This document shows, one piece after another, positions 22,663-29,789 of a stretch of 64,000 bases of DNA. Below the pieces are notes generated by a model that saw only the letters and a program-made list of their open reading frames with translations, did no database searches and had not been told where the DNA came from. The stretch comes from Salinicola peritrichatus. Lineage in GTDB: Bacteria; Pseudomonadota; Gammaproteobacteria; Pseudomonadales; Halomonadaceae. The translations under genes and the position numbers were made by a program. The stretch is taken from the NCBI RefSeq assembly GCF_003206715.1, contig NZ_PZJU01000006.1, positions 124,001 through 188,000 on the forward strand, given 5' to 3'. The number at the start of each line of letters is the position of its first letter. Position 1 is the stretch's first letter.

Positions 22663-23658
22663 ATGCCACCACAGTTCGACGACCAGCGCGCCTCTCCAAC
22701 GCCGACGATCGTCCCCGATCGCAATGACATGACGGTATCGCGCGGCGCTACGCGCCGCCGCCATGACCACGGCATGATGGGACGTCGCCGCCCCAGAGTC
22801 TGGCCGCTATGGGGGTTGTGTCTCTTCCTGATCGCGGCACTGGCCGTCGGTGCCTGGCAGTATCGGCAGGACAGGGACGCACTCGAAGCGCAAATCGACA
22901 GACTCAATCATCGGCTCGATACCACCGGCTCGACTCTGGACGCCTCGGGAGAAAGCCTGCGCGCCGAATTCGATCGCCTGCGCGACCAACTCGAAGCGAC
23001 ACGGGCCGCGGTAGGCAGTCTCGAAACCCGCGTCGATGATCGACGCGACGGTGATCTGGCGCAGCAGGTCGAATCGCTCCAGCAAGCCGACGAGAATCAG
23101 CGGGCACTGATCGGCGCGCTGCAGTCCTCTTTTGCCTCGCTCGAAAGCACGGGGCAGGATGAGCGCGGTGTGTTGAATGCACGGCTGGAAACGCTCGAAG
23201 AGGCTCAGCAGCAACAGGGCGAGCGGCTCGATTCACTAGCGCAGCAGTCCGATGACCGCAGCGCCTCGATCGAGGCACTGCAGCAGAGTCAAAAGACGCT
23301 TGTCCAGCGCTTGGACGATGCCGACGATCAACAGGCGGCGATCGATGAACTGCATGCCTCGGTAACCGCGCTCCAGCAACGCGTCGAGGCTGTGGCGCAG
23401 CAGGATACGCCCTCTTCCGAGACGATCGAGCAATTGCAGAGTGCCGTCACGGAACTTCGCCAGGGCCAGACGGCTCTCAATGCAGGACTCGAATCGCTGC
23501 AATCCCGCCTCGACGGTCTGCCCAGCGGCGTCAGTGCCTCTGAGGTCAGAGAGTTGGGCGAGCGCATCAGTTCACTCGAGGCCAGTCGCGCTCAGCTGAC
23601 ACGCCGCGTGACATCTCTCATTACTGACGTATCCAACTTGCAGCGCGGCGGAGGTTGA
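22663..23658 (+). CDS. Membrane-anchored coiled-coil protein of unknown function
   Basis: A 331-residue protein with a basic cytoplasmic N-terminus (about 1-46, GMMGRRRPRVW), one transmembrane helix (about 47-66, LWGLCLFLIAALAVGAW), and then some 250 residues of almost continuous heptad coiled coil rich in Glu, Gln, Leu and Ser, predicted to be periplasmic. No catalytic motif is visible. The topology resembles HemX/YhcB-like or ATPase-associated envelope coiled coils, but I cannot assign a family. It lies immediately before tamA-tamB; whether it belongs to that operon is uncertain because a mobile repeat separates them. An internal ATG at 22729 is an alternative start. Confidence 0.8.
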   Translation: MPPQFDDQRASPTPTIVPDRNDMTVSRGATRRRHDHGMMGRRRPRVWPLWGLCLFLIAALAVGAWQYRQDRDALEAQIDRLNHRLDTTGSTLDASGESLRAEFDRLRDQLEATRAAVGSLETRVDDRRDGDLAQQVESLQQADENQRALIGALQSSFASLESTGQDERGVLNARLETLEEAQQQQGERLDSLAQQSDDRSASIEALQQSQKTLVQRLDDADDQQAAIDELHASVTALQQRVEAVAQQDTPSSETIEQLQSAVTELRQGQTALNAGLESLQSRLDGLPSGVSASEVRELGERISSLEASRAQLTRRVTSLITDVSNLQRGGG

Positions 23659-23681
23659 GGCAATGCCTGACGTCAAGGTCC

Positions 23682-23826
23682 TAGGGCGTGTACGAAAAGT
23701 CGGCGAGCGAAGGTTAGACAAGGCAAAAATCGGCGAAAGAACGGAGTTTACACGCAGTAAATGAGTATCTTGAGCCGATTTTTAACGCCGTATGGCCGAG
23801 CGCAGGTAGTTTTCGTACATGGCCTA
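23682..23826. mobile_element. 145-bp miniature inverted-repeat element (copy B) at the tamA start
   Basis: The ends TAGGGCGTGTACGAAAA (23682) and TTTTCGTACATGGCCTA (to 23826) are inverted repeats with two mismatches, and TA flanks each side, as expected for a TA target duplication. No coding capacity of its own. The interior matches copy A at 17621-17785. Removing the element and one TA joins CAAGGTCCTA to AAGATGGGG, which puts AAGG 8 nt before the ATG at 23830. This is the basis for inferring insertion between the tamA ribosome-binding site and start codon. Confidence 0.75.
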
Positions 23827-25647
23827 AAGATGGGGCTGGTCTGTCTGGCCCTCCCCATCGCCGGACATGCTTGGGCGCTGGATGTCGAGGTTCGGGGGCT
23901 GTCGGGGCCGGCGGCCGAGAACGTCGTCAATATCCTTTCCGAACTCGATGCCGCCAGCCAGGCGACGCGTGAACGGCTCGACGGCGTGGTCCGGGACCGC
24001 GCCCAGCAGGCGCTGCAAGCCTACGGCTATTACAATGCCGCTCTCGCCACGAGTTTTCCCGATGAAGACAACGAGCGGGTCGTCATCGATGTCAAGCCGG
24101 GAGAGCGCACGCACATTACCCAGCTCAACGTGGCTGTCGAGGGGGAGGCCAAGCAGGACGAGGCCTTCGACGAGTCGATGCAAGCGATCCCGCTCAAGGT
24201 CGGCGATCCGCTGGTTCATTCGCGCTACGAAGGCTTCAAGAGCCGGTTGTCGACCCTAGCGTTGGAGCGGGGATATTTCAGTTCTCGTTTTCGACAGCAG
24301 CGGATCGAAGTGCGTCCCTGGGAAAACAGCGCCCGGATCTTTCTCGATCTCGACAGCGGACCACGCTATCGCTTTGGCCGGGTGCGCTTCGAGGGTAGCC
24401 AGATCGAGCCCCACCGCCTGCAAAACATGATTCCGTTCGAGCCCGGCGATCCCTATCTCGCCGGAGACCTGGCCGTACTGAGTCAGAATCTCGGGCAGAC
24501 CGACTGGTTCCGGGGAGTCGCTGTCAGGCCTCGGGTCAACGAGGATGCGCCGCCGGCCACGCCGAGCCCGTGGTGGCGCGAAGCCACTGGCCGCGAGACG
24601 ACGCTCGACACCACCAAAATCCTGGGCGGGCCCGGGCTGCAAGTCGCACGGCAGTTGACCGGCAGTCAGCCGACGAGCGTACCGGTGAACGTGGAACTGA
24701 CGCCGGCGGATCGCCATCAGTTCGAAGTTGGCGTCGGCTATGCCACTGACGTCGGACCGCGTACCCAGTTTTCCTGGACCATGCCCTGGCTCAATCGCTA
24801 TGGACACAGTCTGACCAACTCGCTCTATCTCTCCGCGCCGGAGCAGCGCTTTTCCGGTGAATACGCCATCCCGCTGGAGAACCCGCTGCGCGATAGCTAT
24901 CGGGTCCGCTACGGGTTGGAGCGCGTCGACAACGAAGACACCAAGAGCTTCGAAAGCTCGGTGCAGCTGGCGCGTCATTGGGTATTCTCCAACGGCTGGG
25001 TCCAGGATCTCTACTGGCAGACCACCTACGAGGACTTCACCCAGGCCGATCAGGACGATGCCGTGCTGTTGCTGTATCCCGGCATCAGCTGGTCACGCAC
25101 GCGCAAGCGCAACCCGATCTTCCCGAGTTGGGGCGACAAGCAGCAGTTGACGCTGGAGTGGTCGGAACCCGCCTGGGGGTCGGATGCGCGCTTCGTGCGC
25201 ACCACGTTCAGCACCCAGTGGATACGCATGCTGGGCAGCGAGAACCGGTTCCTGTGGCGACTCGGCGGTGGCGCCATGGCGACCGACACCTTCGACAAGA
25301 TTCCTCCATCGCTGCGCTTCTTCGCCGGGGGCGACCAGAGCATTCGCGGCTACTCCTACGAGAGCCTGTCGCCGGAGAACGAGGATGGCGAACTGCTGGG
25401 TGGCCAGCACATGTTGACCAGCAGCCTCGAATATCAGCGCCACCTGACCGGCAATTTCTGGGGCGCGACCTTCGTCGACACCGGTAACGCTTTCGACGAG
25501 TGGTGGCCGGAGGAACTCAAGACCGGCGCCGGGGTGGGCGTGCGCTGGATTTCTCCAGTCGGGCCGATCCGTTTCGATATCGCCCATCCGTTTGACGACG
25601 AGGAGGACTCTTGGCGTCTCCATTTCTCCATCGGACCGGAGTTCTGA
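23761..25647 (+). CDS. tamA: Translocation and assembly module outer-membrane protein TamA
   Basis: A 628-residue Omp85-family protein from ATG 23761, or 605 residues from ATG 23830. It has POTRA domains (about residues 40-280; VKPGERTHITQLNV, SGPRYRFGRVRFEGSQIE), then a 16-strand barrel with the Omp85 loop-6 motif FFAGGDQSIRGYSYES and a C-terminal aromatic residue (HFSIGPEF). With TamB it inserts autotransporters and helps lipid traffic to the outer membrane. The first 22 residues (MSILSRFLTPYGRA...) are encoded by the mobile repeat. The native start is probably ATG 23830, with signal MGLVCLALPIAGHAWA. Which start is used now is open. Confidence 0.92.
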   Translation: MSILSRFLTPYGRAQVVFVHGLKMGLVCLALPIAGHAWALDVEVRGLSGPAAENVVNILSELDAASQATRERLDGVVRDRAQQALQAYGYYNAALATSFPDEDNERVVIDVKPGERTHITQLNVAVEGEAKQDEAFDESMQAIPLKVGDPLVHSRYEGFKSRLSTLALERGYFSSRFRQQRIEVRPWENSARIFLDLDSGPRYRFGRVRFEGSQIEPHRLQNMIPFEPGDPYLAGDLAVLSQNLGQTDWFRGVAVRPRVNEDAPPATPSPWWREATGRETTLDTTKILGGPGLQVARQLTGSQPTSVPVNVELTPADRHQFEVGVGYATDVGPRTQFSWTMPWLNRYGHSLTNSLYLSAPEQRFSGEYAIPLENPLRDSYRVRYGLERVDNEDTKSFESSVQLARHWVFSNGWVQDLYWQTTYEDFTQADQDDAVLLLYPGISWSRTRKRNPIFPSWGDKQQLTLEWSEPAWGSDARFVRTTFSTQWIRMLGSENRFLWRLGGGAMATDTFDKIPPSLRFFAGGDQSIRGYSYESLSPENEDGELLGGQHMLTSSLEYQRHLTGNFWGATFVDTGNAFDEWWPEELKTGAGVGVRWISPVGPIRFDIAHPFDDEEDSWRLHFSIGPEF

Positions 25648-28600
25648 TTCGGCTACTGCTATGGCTGATTCTTTGGCTGATCGGACTAATACTGTTCCTG
25701 GCCGGGCTGGGATTGTCCCCCTGGGGTACGCAGTGGCTGTTCGAGCAGGCGCAGTCGCGTGGCTGGGTGCAGGCCGAGCGATTCGAAGGCGCGCCGCTCG
25801 ATGAGCTGACGATCGAAGGCTTGCAACTCACCGTTGGCACGCTCGATCTCTCCGTGGATCGTTTCCATCTGGCCTGGGCGGACGATTGCCTGCTCAAGGG
25901 GCGGGTATGCCTCGACGATCTGAGTGTTTCCGGCGCCCGCATCCAGATGGGGGAAAGCGATGCTGCGCCGGCGCCGGAAGCGGCCGAAGAGCCGGGCGAC
26001 GGCATGCCGTCGATCGCCGTGCCGTTGCCGATCGAGGTCCGCCAGTTGCGCCTGGACGATGTCGGCATCCAGCTCGCCGACGACACCGATATCCACTGGC
26101 GACACTTCGCAACCGGCGCTCGCATGAGCGGCAATCACCTGACCCTGTTGCCGACGACGCTCGAGCAGACGCGCATCCAGTTACCGCAACCTCGAAGCCC
26201 GGGCCAGGCGCTCGCCGATGCCGAGCTCGGCGCCGGGATCGTCAGCCCGGCGGCCATCGATGCCGCCATTGCGGTGAATCGACCGGCAGATGCGACAACG
26301 CCCGCGGGCCCTTCAGCAGTATCCGACTCGACGCAGATCGCGGCCGTGCCGGAAAACCCCGTCGTTCCGGTGCTGAGCCCATTGACGCTGGCAGCCGCGG
26401 CGAATGTCGCCGACATGCAGCAATCAGCAGACGATACCGATCCCGTGGTCGATCAGATCGAGCAGCGCCTGCGCGACGTTCGCCAACAGTTACCCGACTT
26501 CCAGCTGCCATTGCAGATCGACGTTCCCAGTCTGGTCATAAGCGATCTCGCCCTCGCAGGGCCGGCTCCGCAGCAGTTGAACCGTCTCGAACTGTCGTTC
26601 TCCGCGGTCGAGCGCCATGTCGAGATTCAGCGCCTGATGCTGGATGCGCCGGATGGCCGCGCCGAACTCCAGGCCAGCGCCGAGCTCAGCGGCGATATAC
26701 CCGTTGCCGTCTCGCTGCGCAGCCGCATCACCCGCGCGCCGGTCTACGGTCAGAACCTGGCCCTGGAGGCCGATGGCTCGCTGGCGAACCTGAACGTCAG
26801 GTTGCGGACCGATGGCAACGCCGAGGCAACGATTCGCGCCAATGTCCAGGCGTTCGAACCTGGCGTACCGTTCGAACTGCACGTCAACGCCGATGATCTG
26901 CGCTGGCCGTTGGCGAACCGGCCTTTCGCGCCGTTCAGCGATCTGCAGGGCGGCATCGATGAATCGGCCATTCTCGCTGCCAGAGCGTTGAGAGGCGTGC
27001 CGGCGAGCGAGCAGACACCGGCCCGGTATCGACTCGAGCATCTGGCGCTGGATGTCGACGGCAGCCTCGAAGGCTACCGTGCCAATATCGACGCGGCCGG
27101 TCAGGGTGCCGGACTGCCGCCGGTGACGTTGGCCCTCGCAGGCGAGGGCGATCTTCGCCGGTTCCGGTGGCAGCCGATACGCGTGGCCAGCCAGGGCGGC
27201 GAGCTCCAAAGCCAGGGCTTGGTGCGCTGGATGCCGACGCTGTCCGCCAGCGTGAGTCTGAACTTCAAGCAACTCCCGCTGGATGCTTTCACCCGGGCGG
27301 TGACCGGACAGCTCGACGGCCAGGCACGGGCGGCTTTCGCCATGCGCGACGATGGCGGATGGCAACTGGCACTGCCCGAGCTTTCGGTCGACGGTCGCCT
27401 GCAGCAGCGTGCGCTGCGCCTCGATGCGCAACTCGACGGCAACAGCGACATGCAGTGGAACATCCATGAGTTGGATTTTCGCCAGGGCGACAATCGGCTG
27501 ACCGCCAGCGGTCGCGTCGACGACCGTCTCGATATCGACGGTCGTATCGATGCGCCGGCGCTGGGTAGCATTCTGCCGGATTTGTCGGGCACGCTGCGTG
27601 GTCGGTTCCAGGGACGAGGCACGCTGGAACGCCCGCAAATCGCGCTCGATCTGCAAGGAGCCGACGTCGGCTACGCCGAGAACCATCTGCAGCAGATAGC
27701 GCTGAAGGCGAACTCCGCCGGTACCCAGGATCCACAATTCGACGTCGAATTGAGCGCCAGCGGTATCGAGGCCGCCAATCAGCGGATCCGTAGTGTGGCC
27801 CTGGACCTTGCGGGGCGTCTCTCTCAACATCGGCTGTCGCTCGACGTGGACGGTGGTGAAGGCTTGCCGGTATCGCAGGCATCGCTGCGTCTACAGGGCG
27901 GTCTCGGGGCTCAATATCAGCGCTATCAGGGATCGCTGTCGACGCTCTCCGTGGCCACCGATTACGGCGATATCGCTCTACGCGACTCGCTCGATTTCAG
28001 CGCCAACCTGGCCAACGCCAGCGCCACGCTGTCGCCGTTCTGCCTGGACCGTCGGCAGGGCGGCGCGCTCTGTCTGACCGAGCGCATGAACGCATCCAAG
28101 GCCCAGGGGCGCGCTGCGCTGTCGATCGACGAGTTGCCCATGGCACTGCTTAACGACTTCATGCCCGAGGAGTGGCAGGTCGACGGGCAGACCGGCGGCA
28201 ATGTCATCGCCAGTTGGTCGCAGGGTGGACGCGCCTGGTCGGCCAAGGCCGACATCGATAGCCAGGCAGCGGTCAGCGGGGTCGATGCGCGTGGCGCGTC
28301 CTGGCAGGTGCCCGCGGCATCGCTGTCGCTGTCGTTGGATGCCAACCAACAGCGCGCGCGGACGCAGGTCGATCTACGGCTCGAGGATGCCGGTCGCGTG
28401 CAGTTGCAGGCCCAGATCGATGATCCGGCCGGCGATGGTACGCTGCAGGGGCGTCTGCAACTCGGGGATCTGCGCTTTGCGCCGTACCGGCCGCTGGTGG
28501 CGGGCATCGATCAGCTCGAAGGCGCGATCAACGGCGACGTGACGCTCGGCGGCACGCTTGCCATGCCGGCGCTCGACGGTAACGTGAGCATCGCTGACGT

Positions 28601-29789
28601 CAAGGTGCGCGGCGGGGTATCCCCCGTTGCGGTCACCGACGCCCGGCTCGACCTGGCTCTGCAGGGGCAATCCTCGACGCTCCAGGGGTTTGTCCAGAGC
28701 GACGATGGCCGGCTGGACCTTGCCGGAGATGCCGATTGGCAGGACCCGGCCAACTGGCGCGTCAATGTCAATATCGACGGCACCGAGTCGCCGCTGCTGG
28801 TAGCCATGCCGGCCTATGGCCGCTTGCGGATCTCGCCGGATCTTCAGATTCATGCCATGCCCCAGCGGCTTCAGGTTCGCGGGGATGTCAGCGTGCCTTG
28901 GGCGCGCCTGGAGATCGGTCAGATTCCCGCATCGGCGCAAGCGCCCAGCAGCGACACCGTGATCATCTCCGAAGAGGAAGATAAACAGATGCAAGCCGCC
29001 CAGGCGGCCGAGGCCAACGACGAGGGTGCCGGAACCGCGCAAGCGCTCGCCGACGCCGGCATGCAACTCGACATGCGGGTCAACCTGCATCTGGGACCGG
29101 ACATGCAACTCGAGGCCTACGGTCTGGAGGCCGGATTGCGTGGCGAACTCGAAGTCCGTCAGGGCACCGGGCCGGTCCAGTTGTACGGCGATGTCAATCT
29201 GATCGACGGAACCTACACCTCCTTCGGTCAGGACCTGATCATCCGCCAGGGACAGGTGTTGTTCAGCGGTCCGGCTTCCCAGCCGAGCTTGCAGTTCGAG
29301 GCGATTCGCAATCCGGACACCACCGAAGACGACGTGGTTGCCGGCCTGCGCGTTACCGGCCCGGCCTCGGCGCCACGCTTGACGATTTTCTCCGAGCCGG
29401 CGATGACGGAAAGCCGCGCGCTCTCCTATATCCTGCGTGGCCGGGCGCCGGAAGATGGCGGTAGTGGCGACGACGCGCTGACCTCGGCACTGATCGGACT
29501 GTCGCTGTCGCAGACCGGCAGTGCCGTGGGCAAGGTCGGCGAAGCCTTCGGCGTACAGGATCTCAGCCTGGATGCGTCCGGTTCGGGCGACGATAGCCAG
29601 GTCGTGGTCAGCGGTTATGTCTTCGATGACTTGAAGGTGAGCTATGGCGTCGGCATATTCTCTCCCATCGCCGAGCTCACGCTGCGCTATCGCCTGATCC
29701 AGAACCTTTATCTGCAGGCGGTCTCCGGCGCGGCTCAGGCGCTGGACCTCATCTACACCTTCAGCTTGGGTCGCACCGGCGGCCCTTGA
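25611..29789 (+). CDS. tamB: Translocation and assembly module inner-membrane protein TamB
   Basis: A 1392-residue AsmA/TamB-type protein: an N-terminal signal anchor (residues ~11-35, LIRLLLWLILWLIGLILFLA), a very long beta-rich region spanning the periplasm, and the C-terminal DUF490 domain with QLYGDVNLIDGTYTSFGQDL and ESRALSYILRGR. It pairs with TamA, possibly as a lipid bridge. It starts at a TTG (25611) with AGGAGGA just upstream, overlapping tamA by 37 nt. It is somewhat longer than E. coli TamB (about 1260), because of an Ala/Pro/Asp-rich insertion at about residues 195-285. Confidence 0.94.
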   Translation: MASPFLHRTGVLIRLLLWLILWLIGLILFLAGLGLSPWGTQWLFEQAQSRGWVQAERFEGAPLDELTIEGLQLTVGTLDLSVDRFHLAWADDCLLKGRVCLDDLSVSGARIQMGESDAAPAPEAAEEPGDGMPSIAVPLPIEVRQLRLDDVGIQLADDTDIHWRHFATGARMSGNHLTLLPTTLEQTRIQLPQPRSPGQALADAELGAGIVSPAAIDAAIAVNRPADATTPAGPSAVSDSTQIAAVPENPVVPVLSPLTLAAAANVADMQQSADDTDPVVDQIEQRLRDVRQQLPDFQLPLQIDVPSLVISDLALAGPAPQQLNRLELSFSAVERHVEIQRLMLDAPDGRAELQASAELSGDIPVAVSLRSRITRAPVYGQNLALEADGSLANLNVRLRTDGNAEATIRANVQAFEPGVPFELHVNADDLRWPLANRPFAPFSDLQGGIDESAILAARALRGVPASEQTPARYRLEHLALDVDGSLEGYRANIDAAGQGAGLPPVTLALAGEGDLRRFRWQPIRVASQGGELQSQGLVRWMPTLSASVSLNFKQLPLDAFTRAVTGQLDGQARAAFAMRDDGGWQLALPELSVDGRLQQRALRLDAQLDGNSDMQWNIHELDFRQGDNRLTASGRVDDRLDIDGRIDAPALGSILPDLSGTLRGRFQGRGTLERPQIALDLQGADVGYAENHLQQIALKANSAGTQDPQFDVELSASGIEAANQRIRSVALDLAGRLSQHRLSLDVDGGEGLPVSQASLRLQGGLGAQYQRYQGSLSTLSVATDYGDIALRDSLDFSANLANASATLSPFCLDRRQGGALCLTERMNASKAQGRAALSIDELPMALLNDFMPEEWQVDGQTGGNVIASWSQGGRAWSAKADIDSQAAVSGVDARGASWQVPAASLSLSLDANQQRARTQVDLRLEDAGRVQLQAQIDDPAGDGTLQGRLQLGDLRFAPYRPLVAGIDQLEGAINGDVTLGGTLAMPALDGNVSIADVKVRGGVSPVAVTDARLDLALQGQSSTLQGFVQSDDGRLDLAGDADWQDPANWRVNVNIDGTESPLLVAMPAYGRLRISPDLQIHAMPQRLQVRGDVSVPWARLEIGQIPASAQAPSSDTVIISEEEDKQMQAAQAAEANDEGAGTAQALADAGMQLDMRVNLHLGPDMQLEAYGLEAGLRGELEVRQGTGPVQLYGDVNLIDGTYTSFGQDLIIRQGQVLFSGPASQPSLQFEAIRNPDTTEDDVVAGLRVTGPASAPRLTIFSEPAMTESRALSYILRGRAPEDGGSGDDALTSALIGLSLSQTGSAVGKVGEAFGVQDLSLDASGSGDDSQVVVSGYVFDDLKVSYGVGIFSPIAELTLRYRLIQNLYLQAVSGAAQALDLIYTFSLGRTGGP

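Follow-up and report, generated by a model that had tools for sequence, protein, structure and literature searches.

The window, by which we mean the whole 64,000-nucleotide stretch analysed, carries tamA on the forward strand, after a gene for a coiled-coil protein (22663-23658, forward strand; an ORF whose Pfam matches are of coiled-coil type and all fall below the curated cut-offs) and ahead of a large ORF at 25611-29789 that we take to be tamB. As it stands, tamA runs from 23761 to 25647 and reads as 628 amino acids: 22 residues borne by a mobile element, followed by K-MGLVCLALPIAGHAWA. The product contains the Pfam domains POTRA_TamA_1, POTRA and Omp85 and is 82-86% identical over nearly its full length to 16 of its 17 same-genus counterparts; the remaining one matches at 79% over residues 1-428, where it is interrupted by a scaffold gap. 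In G001, what looks like a 6.6-kb break in tamA was likewise rejected as a scaffold gap, its X residues arising from a run of N, and a seemingly fused and scrambled tamA and tamB in the same genome (L267, 814-5871) is an assembly artefact at a run of N.

We compared the start region of tamA across 41 loci from two overlapping collections that include this locus and loci from other genera; seven of the 41 lacked the anchor, among them G010, which was read from a separate comparison. The tamA ATG of every one of the 17 same-genus relatives lies 3-4 nt past a TGA aligned with the stop codon of the preceding gene, and these starts are preceded by GGAGG or GGGGG. The equivalent start in the window is ATG 23663 (MPDVKVL...). 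Here the preceding gene ends at TGA 23656-23658, just 3' of a putative tamA Shine-Dalgarno sequence, GGAGG, at 23650-23654 on the forward strand (CGGAGGTT, 6 nt before ATG 23663), which occupies the same place in relatives. Frame, Shine-Dalgarno sequence and conservation point to ATG 23663 as the native start. The start aligns as M-x-x-x-(K/R/Q)-V-L-(R/G)-(M/T/K)-G-L in 15 of the 17 same-genus proteins, one of which (G001) has an 18-bp in-frame insert nearby, and the signal sequences of G014 and G010 diverge from those of the other same-genus relatives. GTCCTA occupies codons 6-7 in 14 of the 15 alignable relatives. The window reads ATG 23663 CCT GAC GTC AAG GTC CTA, then the element, then AAG ATG GGG CTG; with the element removed, the tamA frame is MPDVKVLKMGLVCLALPIAGHAWA. 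Because the native frame appears to open at ATG 23663, as it does in every same-genus relative, the insertion is inside the coding sequence and, on this assignment, splits codon 7, in the predicted n-region of the signal peptide. The initial annotation had placed the element between the ribosome-binding site and the start codon of tamA; it lies instead within tamA, after codon 7. At roughly the same place, across tamA codons 7-12 of the n-region, L080 and L183 carry an 18-bp in-frame insert (PSHINV).

The same annotation took an internal ATG at 23830-23832 (forward strand) for the original start, restored to an ideal form when the element is deleted. Deletion does bring AAGG (23675-23678) to 8 nt before ATG 23830, but the start is not ideal: its pairing with the anti-Shine-Dalgarno sequence is -1.5 kcal/mol, and the codon at this position is ATG in seven of the 15 alignable relatives and ACG or AAG in the other eight. 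On this pairing and this comparison ATG 23830 is not the ancestral start, and the AAGG before it is a coincidence.

The inserted element and its relatives

The element occupies 23684-23824 (141 bp, forward strand) between two copies of TA, the left at 23682-23683, within codon 7 (CTA), and the right at 23825-23826; the 143 bp added to tamA are the element and one duplicated TA. Its 17-nt inverted ends (23682-23698 against 23810-23826) are imperfect, at 88% complementarity, and the pattern TGTACGAAAA-N90-120-TTTTCGTACA matched once in the window and in none of 100 shuffles. The tamA copy is short and multi-copy, lacks a transposase, has terminal inverted repeats and a target duplication, and is absent from tamA of all 17 same-genus relatives, as expected of a miniature inverted-repeat transposable element (MITE). 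Thus the 17-nt ends and a family of genomic copies bear out the earlier identification of a miniature inverted-repeat element, and the TA flanks are where a duplicated target should be; the stretch does not, however, extend to 23830, which is already the first base of the downstream ATG, since the duplicated TA ends at 23826. An Rfam scan of 23000-24500 returned a single match, far under the gathering score and outside the element. No sigma-70-like promoter was found in 23550-23950, and the sole terminator-like site in a scan of that interval falls outside the element.

The 4.6-Mb genome of the window contains 45 listed matches to the element, some of them two pieces of one copy, the closest 96% identical (40 of 74 candidates scored), and matches occur in 26 of the 38 genomes searched, this one included. 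Membership of such a multi-copy family indicates that the element is not a chance pattern. We fitted 178 loci to the element, in a sample weighted to the best matches, of which 169 are distinct by their flanks. Complete copies, defined by TA at both fitted ends and a length of 135-170 bp, number 71 of the 169, and the remaining 98 lack TA at a fitted end or fall outside that range. Forty-seven of the 71 are exactly 141 bp long. The tamA copy has five changes absent from its three closest relatives in its own genome.

Several other forms were seen. Core-less forms of about 51 bp consist of the two terminal repeats alone (L089 2041-2092, L090 2064-2115, L110, L112, L115 and L123), and variants of 196-197 bp (L022, L028 and L029) carry an insert of about 55 bp with GGGCCGTCCTTCGGACGTTC near the hairpin tip. 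The element core is also paired elsewhere with quite different terminal repeats, such as CCTCTGATTAAC (L023, L025 and L027), and is present in 42 of 194 genomes of an order-level sample (E 1e-8) and on eight plasmid records (Pseudomonas and Halomonas plasmids). Given these differing repeats and this spread across the order and plasmids, several IS types may have mobilised the core.

Among the 71 TA-flanked copies the target is CTAG in 31, CTAA in 21, TTAG in 13 and another sequence in six. Because G follows the left TA in 68 of the 71 and the right TA is followed by a mixture (G 46, A 24, C 1), the duplication is 2 bp (TA), and a 4-bp (YTAR) duplication was ruled out. IS5-family elements of 904-918 bp carry terminal repeats like those of the MITE: a 914-bp copy with GGTTCTGTACGAAAAGTC ends (L144), a 912-bp copy (L149) and a frame-disrupted 904-bp copy (L143), the last two with ends similar to those of the first, all have TA on both sides. 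The ends at L145 and L146 are of the TGTCTGAAAA type, as are those of the IS copies seen in the genome of the window (L146 and L156), and a protein search of that genome found no autonomous copy with the exact end type of the tamA element. The 904-bp copy matches PF13340 (DUF4096, E 1.2e-27) and PF01609 (DDE_Tnp_1, E 2.8e-10), and the other IS copies match it by protein search. Two-frame transposase matches were found at G000:C24 and G001:C106. In the IS427 group, 10 of the 11 members among those listed in a Paracoccus study make a 2-bp duplication, and some members have two overlapping transposase frames (PMC3281130). On these grounds the most fitting name for the tamA copy is a MITE whose ends are IS427-group-like, and it would have been mobilised in trans.

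IS630 elements duplicate TA in CTAG. We rejected mobilisation of this type, as none of the five DDE_3 loci checked in this genome and G021 carries these ends around its own transposase, with the three G021 loci cut by contig ends so that one side is visible in each. DDE_3 transposases occur in four of the 38 genomes, and an IS5-family parent adjoins one DDE_3 locus (L135). Among single-end matches in G000 and G005 we recognised MITE forms, core-less forms of about 51 bp and lone ends, and no autonomous copy.

Translation across the insertion

Read from ATG 23663, the native frame is truncated to 33 amino acids (23663-23764, forward strand), MPDVKVL and 26 element codons, with the product MPDVKVLGRVRKVGERRLDKAKIGERTEFTRSK; within the element, frame 1 continues from native codon 7 without a stop until TGA 23762-23764. 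Frame 3 has TAA at 23758-23760 and, from ATG 23761 just after it, runs uninterrupted through tamA. The two frames meet in an ATGA at 23761-23764 (forward strand), in which TGA 23762 closes the native frame and ATG 23761 opens the tamA frame. It is this overlap of truncated and new frames, absent from the initial annotation, that matters. One of the six combinations of orientation and phase yields an ATG overlapping the entry stop together with an open, in-frame exit, a chance of about one in six that is weak evidence alone. The 605 codons downstream of the insertion are intact and conserved. Comparison of tamA with 16 relatives gives dN/dS values of 0.087-0.150 on a long branch where dS (0.75-1.2) is close to saturation. 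The gene thus appears intact and conserved, and the ratio, averaged over that long branch, is no proof of function after the insertion. By hydropathy, the element lengthens the n-region alone and leaves the hydrophobic core and the putative HAWA cleavage region unaltered.

The element RNA is predicted to fold into one hairpin (-58.4 kcal/mol, z-score -6.6), with the AUG of 23761 in its apical arm. Across 60 distinct 141-bp copies, 95.1% of cells pair, a figure that falls to 30-46% if partners are slid, and 17 pairs are changed on both sides, compared with a shuffled mean of 11.3 and a count reached in 0 of 500 shuffles; the test leans to structure, as the fold was derived from one of the 60 copies and the copies are related. 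Since the AUG would lie in a stable, co-varying hairpin, unaided ribosome entry should be poor and translation from upstream should help.

From what is read directly in the sequence (the insertion, its place in the gene, both open frames, their overlap and the predicted hairpin), we consider it probable that termination-reinitiation at the ATGA yields TamA from ATG 23761. A non-autonomous 141-bp element would have inserted at the TA of tamA codon 7 (CTA), in the n-region, and the added 143 bp would have shifted the native frame. Ribosomes would still load at the strong native Shine-Dalgarno sequence (-10.7 kcal/mol) and initiate at ATG 23663, open the hairpin, translate 33 codons and terminate at TGA 23762. 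A share of them would then reinitiate at the overlapping ATG 23761, in frame with tamA. TamA would gain 22 residues ahead of the hydrophobic signal core, and the mature protein should stay the same. Both reinitiation, with its efficiency, and signal-peptide cleavage are what we infer here. In published accounts of E. coli and Haloferax, 4-nt ATGA overlaps couple genes (PMC6728339, PMC10666635). On this proposal ATG 23761 inside the element is the most plausible start of tamA, as had been suggested together with its 22 foreign residues; the resulting N-terminus MSILSRF, which the annotation would not expect of relatives, was looked for and is in none of those read. Against reinitiation, the ribosomes would have to melt a predicted hairpin of great stability, and the family sample holds no second confirmed case.

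Alternatively, ribosomes may enter de novo at ATG 23761, independently of the native start, by way of the element's own CGGAG at 23742-23746 (forward strand), a possible weak Shine-Dalgarno sequence whose effective distance from the ATG would be reduced by the apical hairpin. The conservation of this site, as GGAGTTTA in 58 of 60 aligned copies, and its pairing of -6.1 kcal/mol give this account some weight. We nevertheless think it unlikely, as the site lies 13-14 nt before the ATG, an unfavourable spacing (13 nt in the pairing calculation) far from the usual 5-9 nt, and both the AUG and part of the CGGAG would be held in the stable predicted stem.

A frame-shifting insert with so stable a predicted hairpin after codon 7 could instead have abolished tamA or strongly reduced its expression, through scant reinitiation or a poorly used signal peptide, and E. 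coli can do without TamA in laboratory culture. The intact, conserved downstream codons and an orientation and phase that happen to permit rescue argue against such a loss and make it, to our minds, distinctly unlikely, although both are also compatible with a recent one.

Translation from ATG 23830 is very improbable. The codon is ATG here and in the seven relatives noted above, and a start there would still leave a short signal sequence, but the ACG or AAG of the other eight and the weak pairing already described speak against it. Moreover, this ATG sits 65 nt past the stop of the leader, and reinitiation there should, by analogy, be rare because a stop-start separation of about 20 nt is described as nearly abolishing the process (PMC10666635). 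Finally, recoding, either by hairpin bypass from CTA (23681-23683) to CTA (23824-23826) or by a frameshift near AAA TGA, is hardly credible: the duplicated target and a terminal C do provide identical CTA codons on either side of a hairpin predicted to be strong, and AAG ATG then resumes the native frame, but a bypass of 143 nt would be long, the take-off codon is not followed by a stop, we saw by eye no slippery sequence fitting a shift, and the matching codons are its sole support.

Family copies at and within genes

The stop/start core is nearly invariant in the family, with AAATGAG present in 58 of 60 aligned copies and GTAAATG kept in 140 of 144 sampled copies of at least 75% identity. 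Of the 71 complete copies, 23 preserve the whole layout, with an entry frame that reaches the overlap and an open exit in the restored frame. No second gene that is both interrupted and rescued was confirmed among the sampled copies, and tamA is the sole interrupted gene confirmed against relatives. In five copies (L013, L058, L106, L200 and L253) the start reads into a Pfam-supported gene, and by eye these seem to lie ahead of the gene's own start. The long frames in L041, L227, L232 and L237 gave no Pfam match. We also found 53 frames spanning the empty site in 40 copies, with at least 8 codons required on each side, a threshold that leaves out the tamA copy with its 7. A Pfam scan of the longer halves of 30 of the 53 gave matches in six (L213, L242, L251, L265, L214 and L032), which are candidate interrupted genes.

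A different placement is common. Twenty-six of the 71 complete copies, which come from Salinicola and related genomes, lie precisely at the stop codon that ends an upstream frame at least 150 codons long (for example L005, L035, L040, L043 and L215), where the stop is rebuilt from the duplicated TA and the first base of the element's end. Such sites account for 28 of 141 site-orientations, compared with 14 of 270 control YTAR flank sites and 17 of 230 window sites; the binomial p of 1.4e-6 against the window rate ignores relatedness, and L041 and L257 seem to be the same insertion shared by two species. Pfam matches (1e-5) were found for 24 of the 28 stop-codon frames, in 23 copies, and the element end facing the gene is the right one in 22 and the left in six. 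A position inside a gene, like that of the tamA copy, is unusual within the sample.

We also considered whether the family core, GGAGTTTAC-loop-GTAAATGAG, which forms the tip of a co-varying hairpin and is joined to several terminal repeats across the order, could be a mobile stop/start adaptor of which tamA is a natural example. We regard this generalisation as a long shot. If it were true, insertion on the right strand and in the right phase would turn one cistron into two coupled ones, and the gene would survive.

Comparison with known systems

The corrected picture, drawn from sequence comparison, may be somewhat more interesting mechanistically than that of the initial annotation. The case illustrates how, in principle, a conserved gene can take a frame-shifting insertion close to its start without harm, since the inserted element supplies a stop and a start that overlap in the correct frames. 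Gene-calling software is expected to put the tamA start at ATG 23761, which would hide the truncated native frame. The tamA case is a small, natural and testable system for termination-reinitiation made by a mobile element, and in our search of the open-access literature we came across no MITE described as dividing one gene into a pair coupled by stop and start.

Several known elements resemble the tamA copy in part. MITEAba12 of Acinetobacter is likewise non-autonomous, is moved by a co-resident IS and, according to its description, could in some copies supply the first residues (MQQS, four) of neighbouring coding sequences (PMC6382973). Unlike the tamA copy, it is 111-114 bp long, with 9-bp duplications and ISAba12 ends; its 5' fusions read outward from the terminal repeat, and the account of them reports no interrupted native start or ATGA overlap (PMC6382973). 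MITEPsy1 of Pseudomonas syringae is also a small MITE, described as probably IS5-like with a preference for CTAG/YTAA targets, and its authors state that an insertion within a coding sequence shifts the frame (PMC3189936). In contrast to the tamA copy, it is 100 bp long and has a 4-nt duplication and other terminal repeats (PMC3189936). As for the parents, IS427-group members are given as 832-865 bp (PMC3281130), close to the 904-918 bp of those found here; the tamA element itself has no transposase. The palindromic elements of Rickettsia, described as palindromes of about 150 bp inside protein-coding genes, are similar in size and setting, but they are read through in frame, whereas the tamA frame is broken and would be restarted (PMC10969869). 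Lastly, the ATGA-coupled pairs described in the E. coli and Haloferax studies are native genes, whereas at tamA the overlap has been made within a single gene by a mobile element (PMC6728339, PMC10666635).
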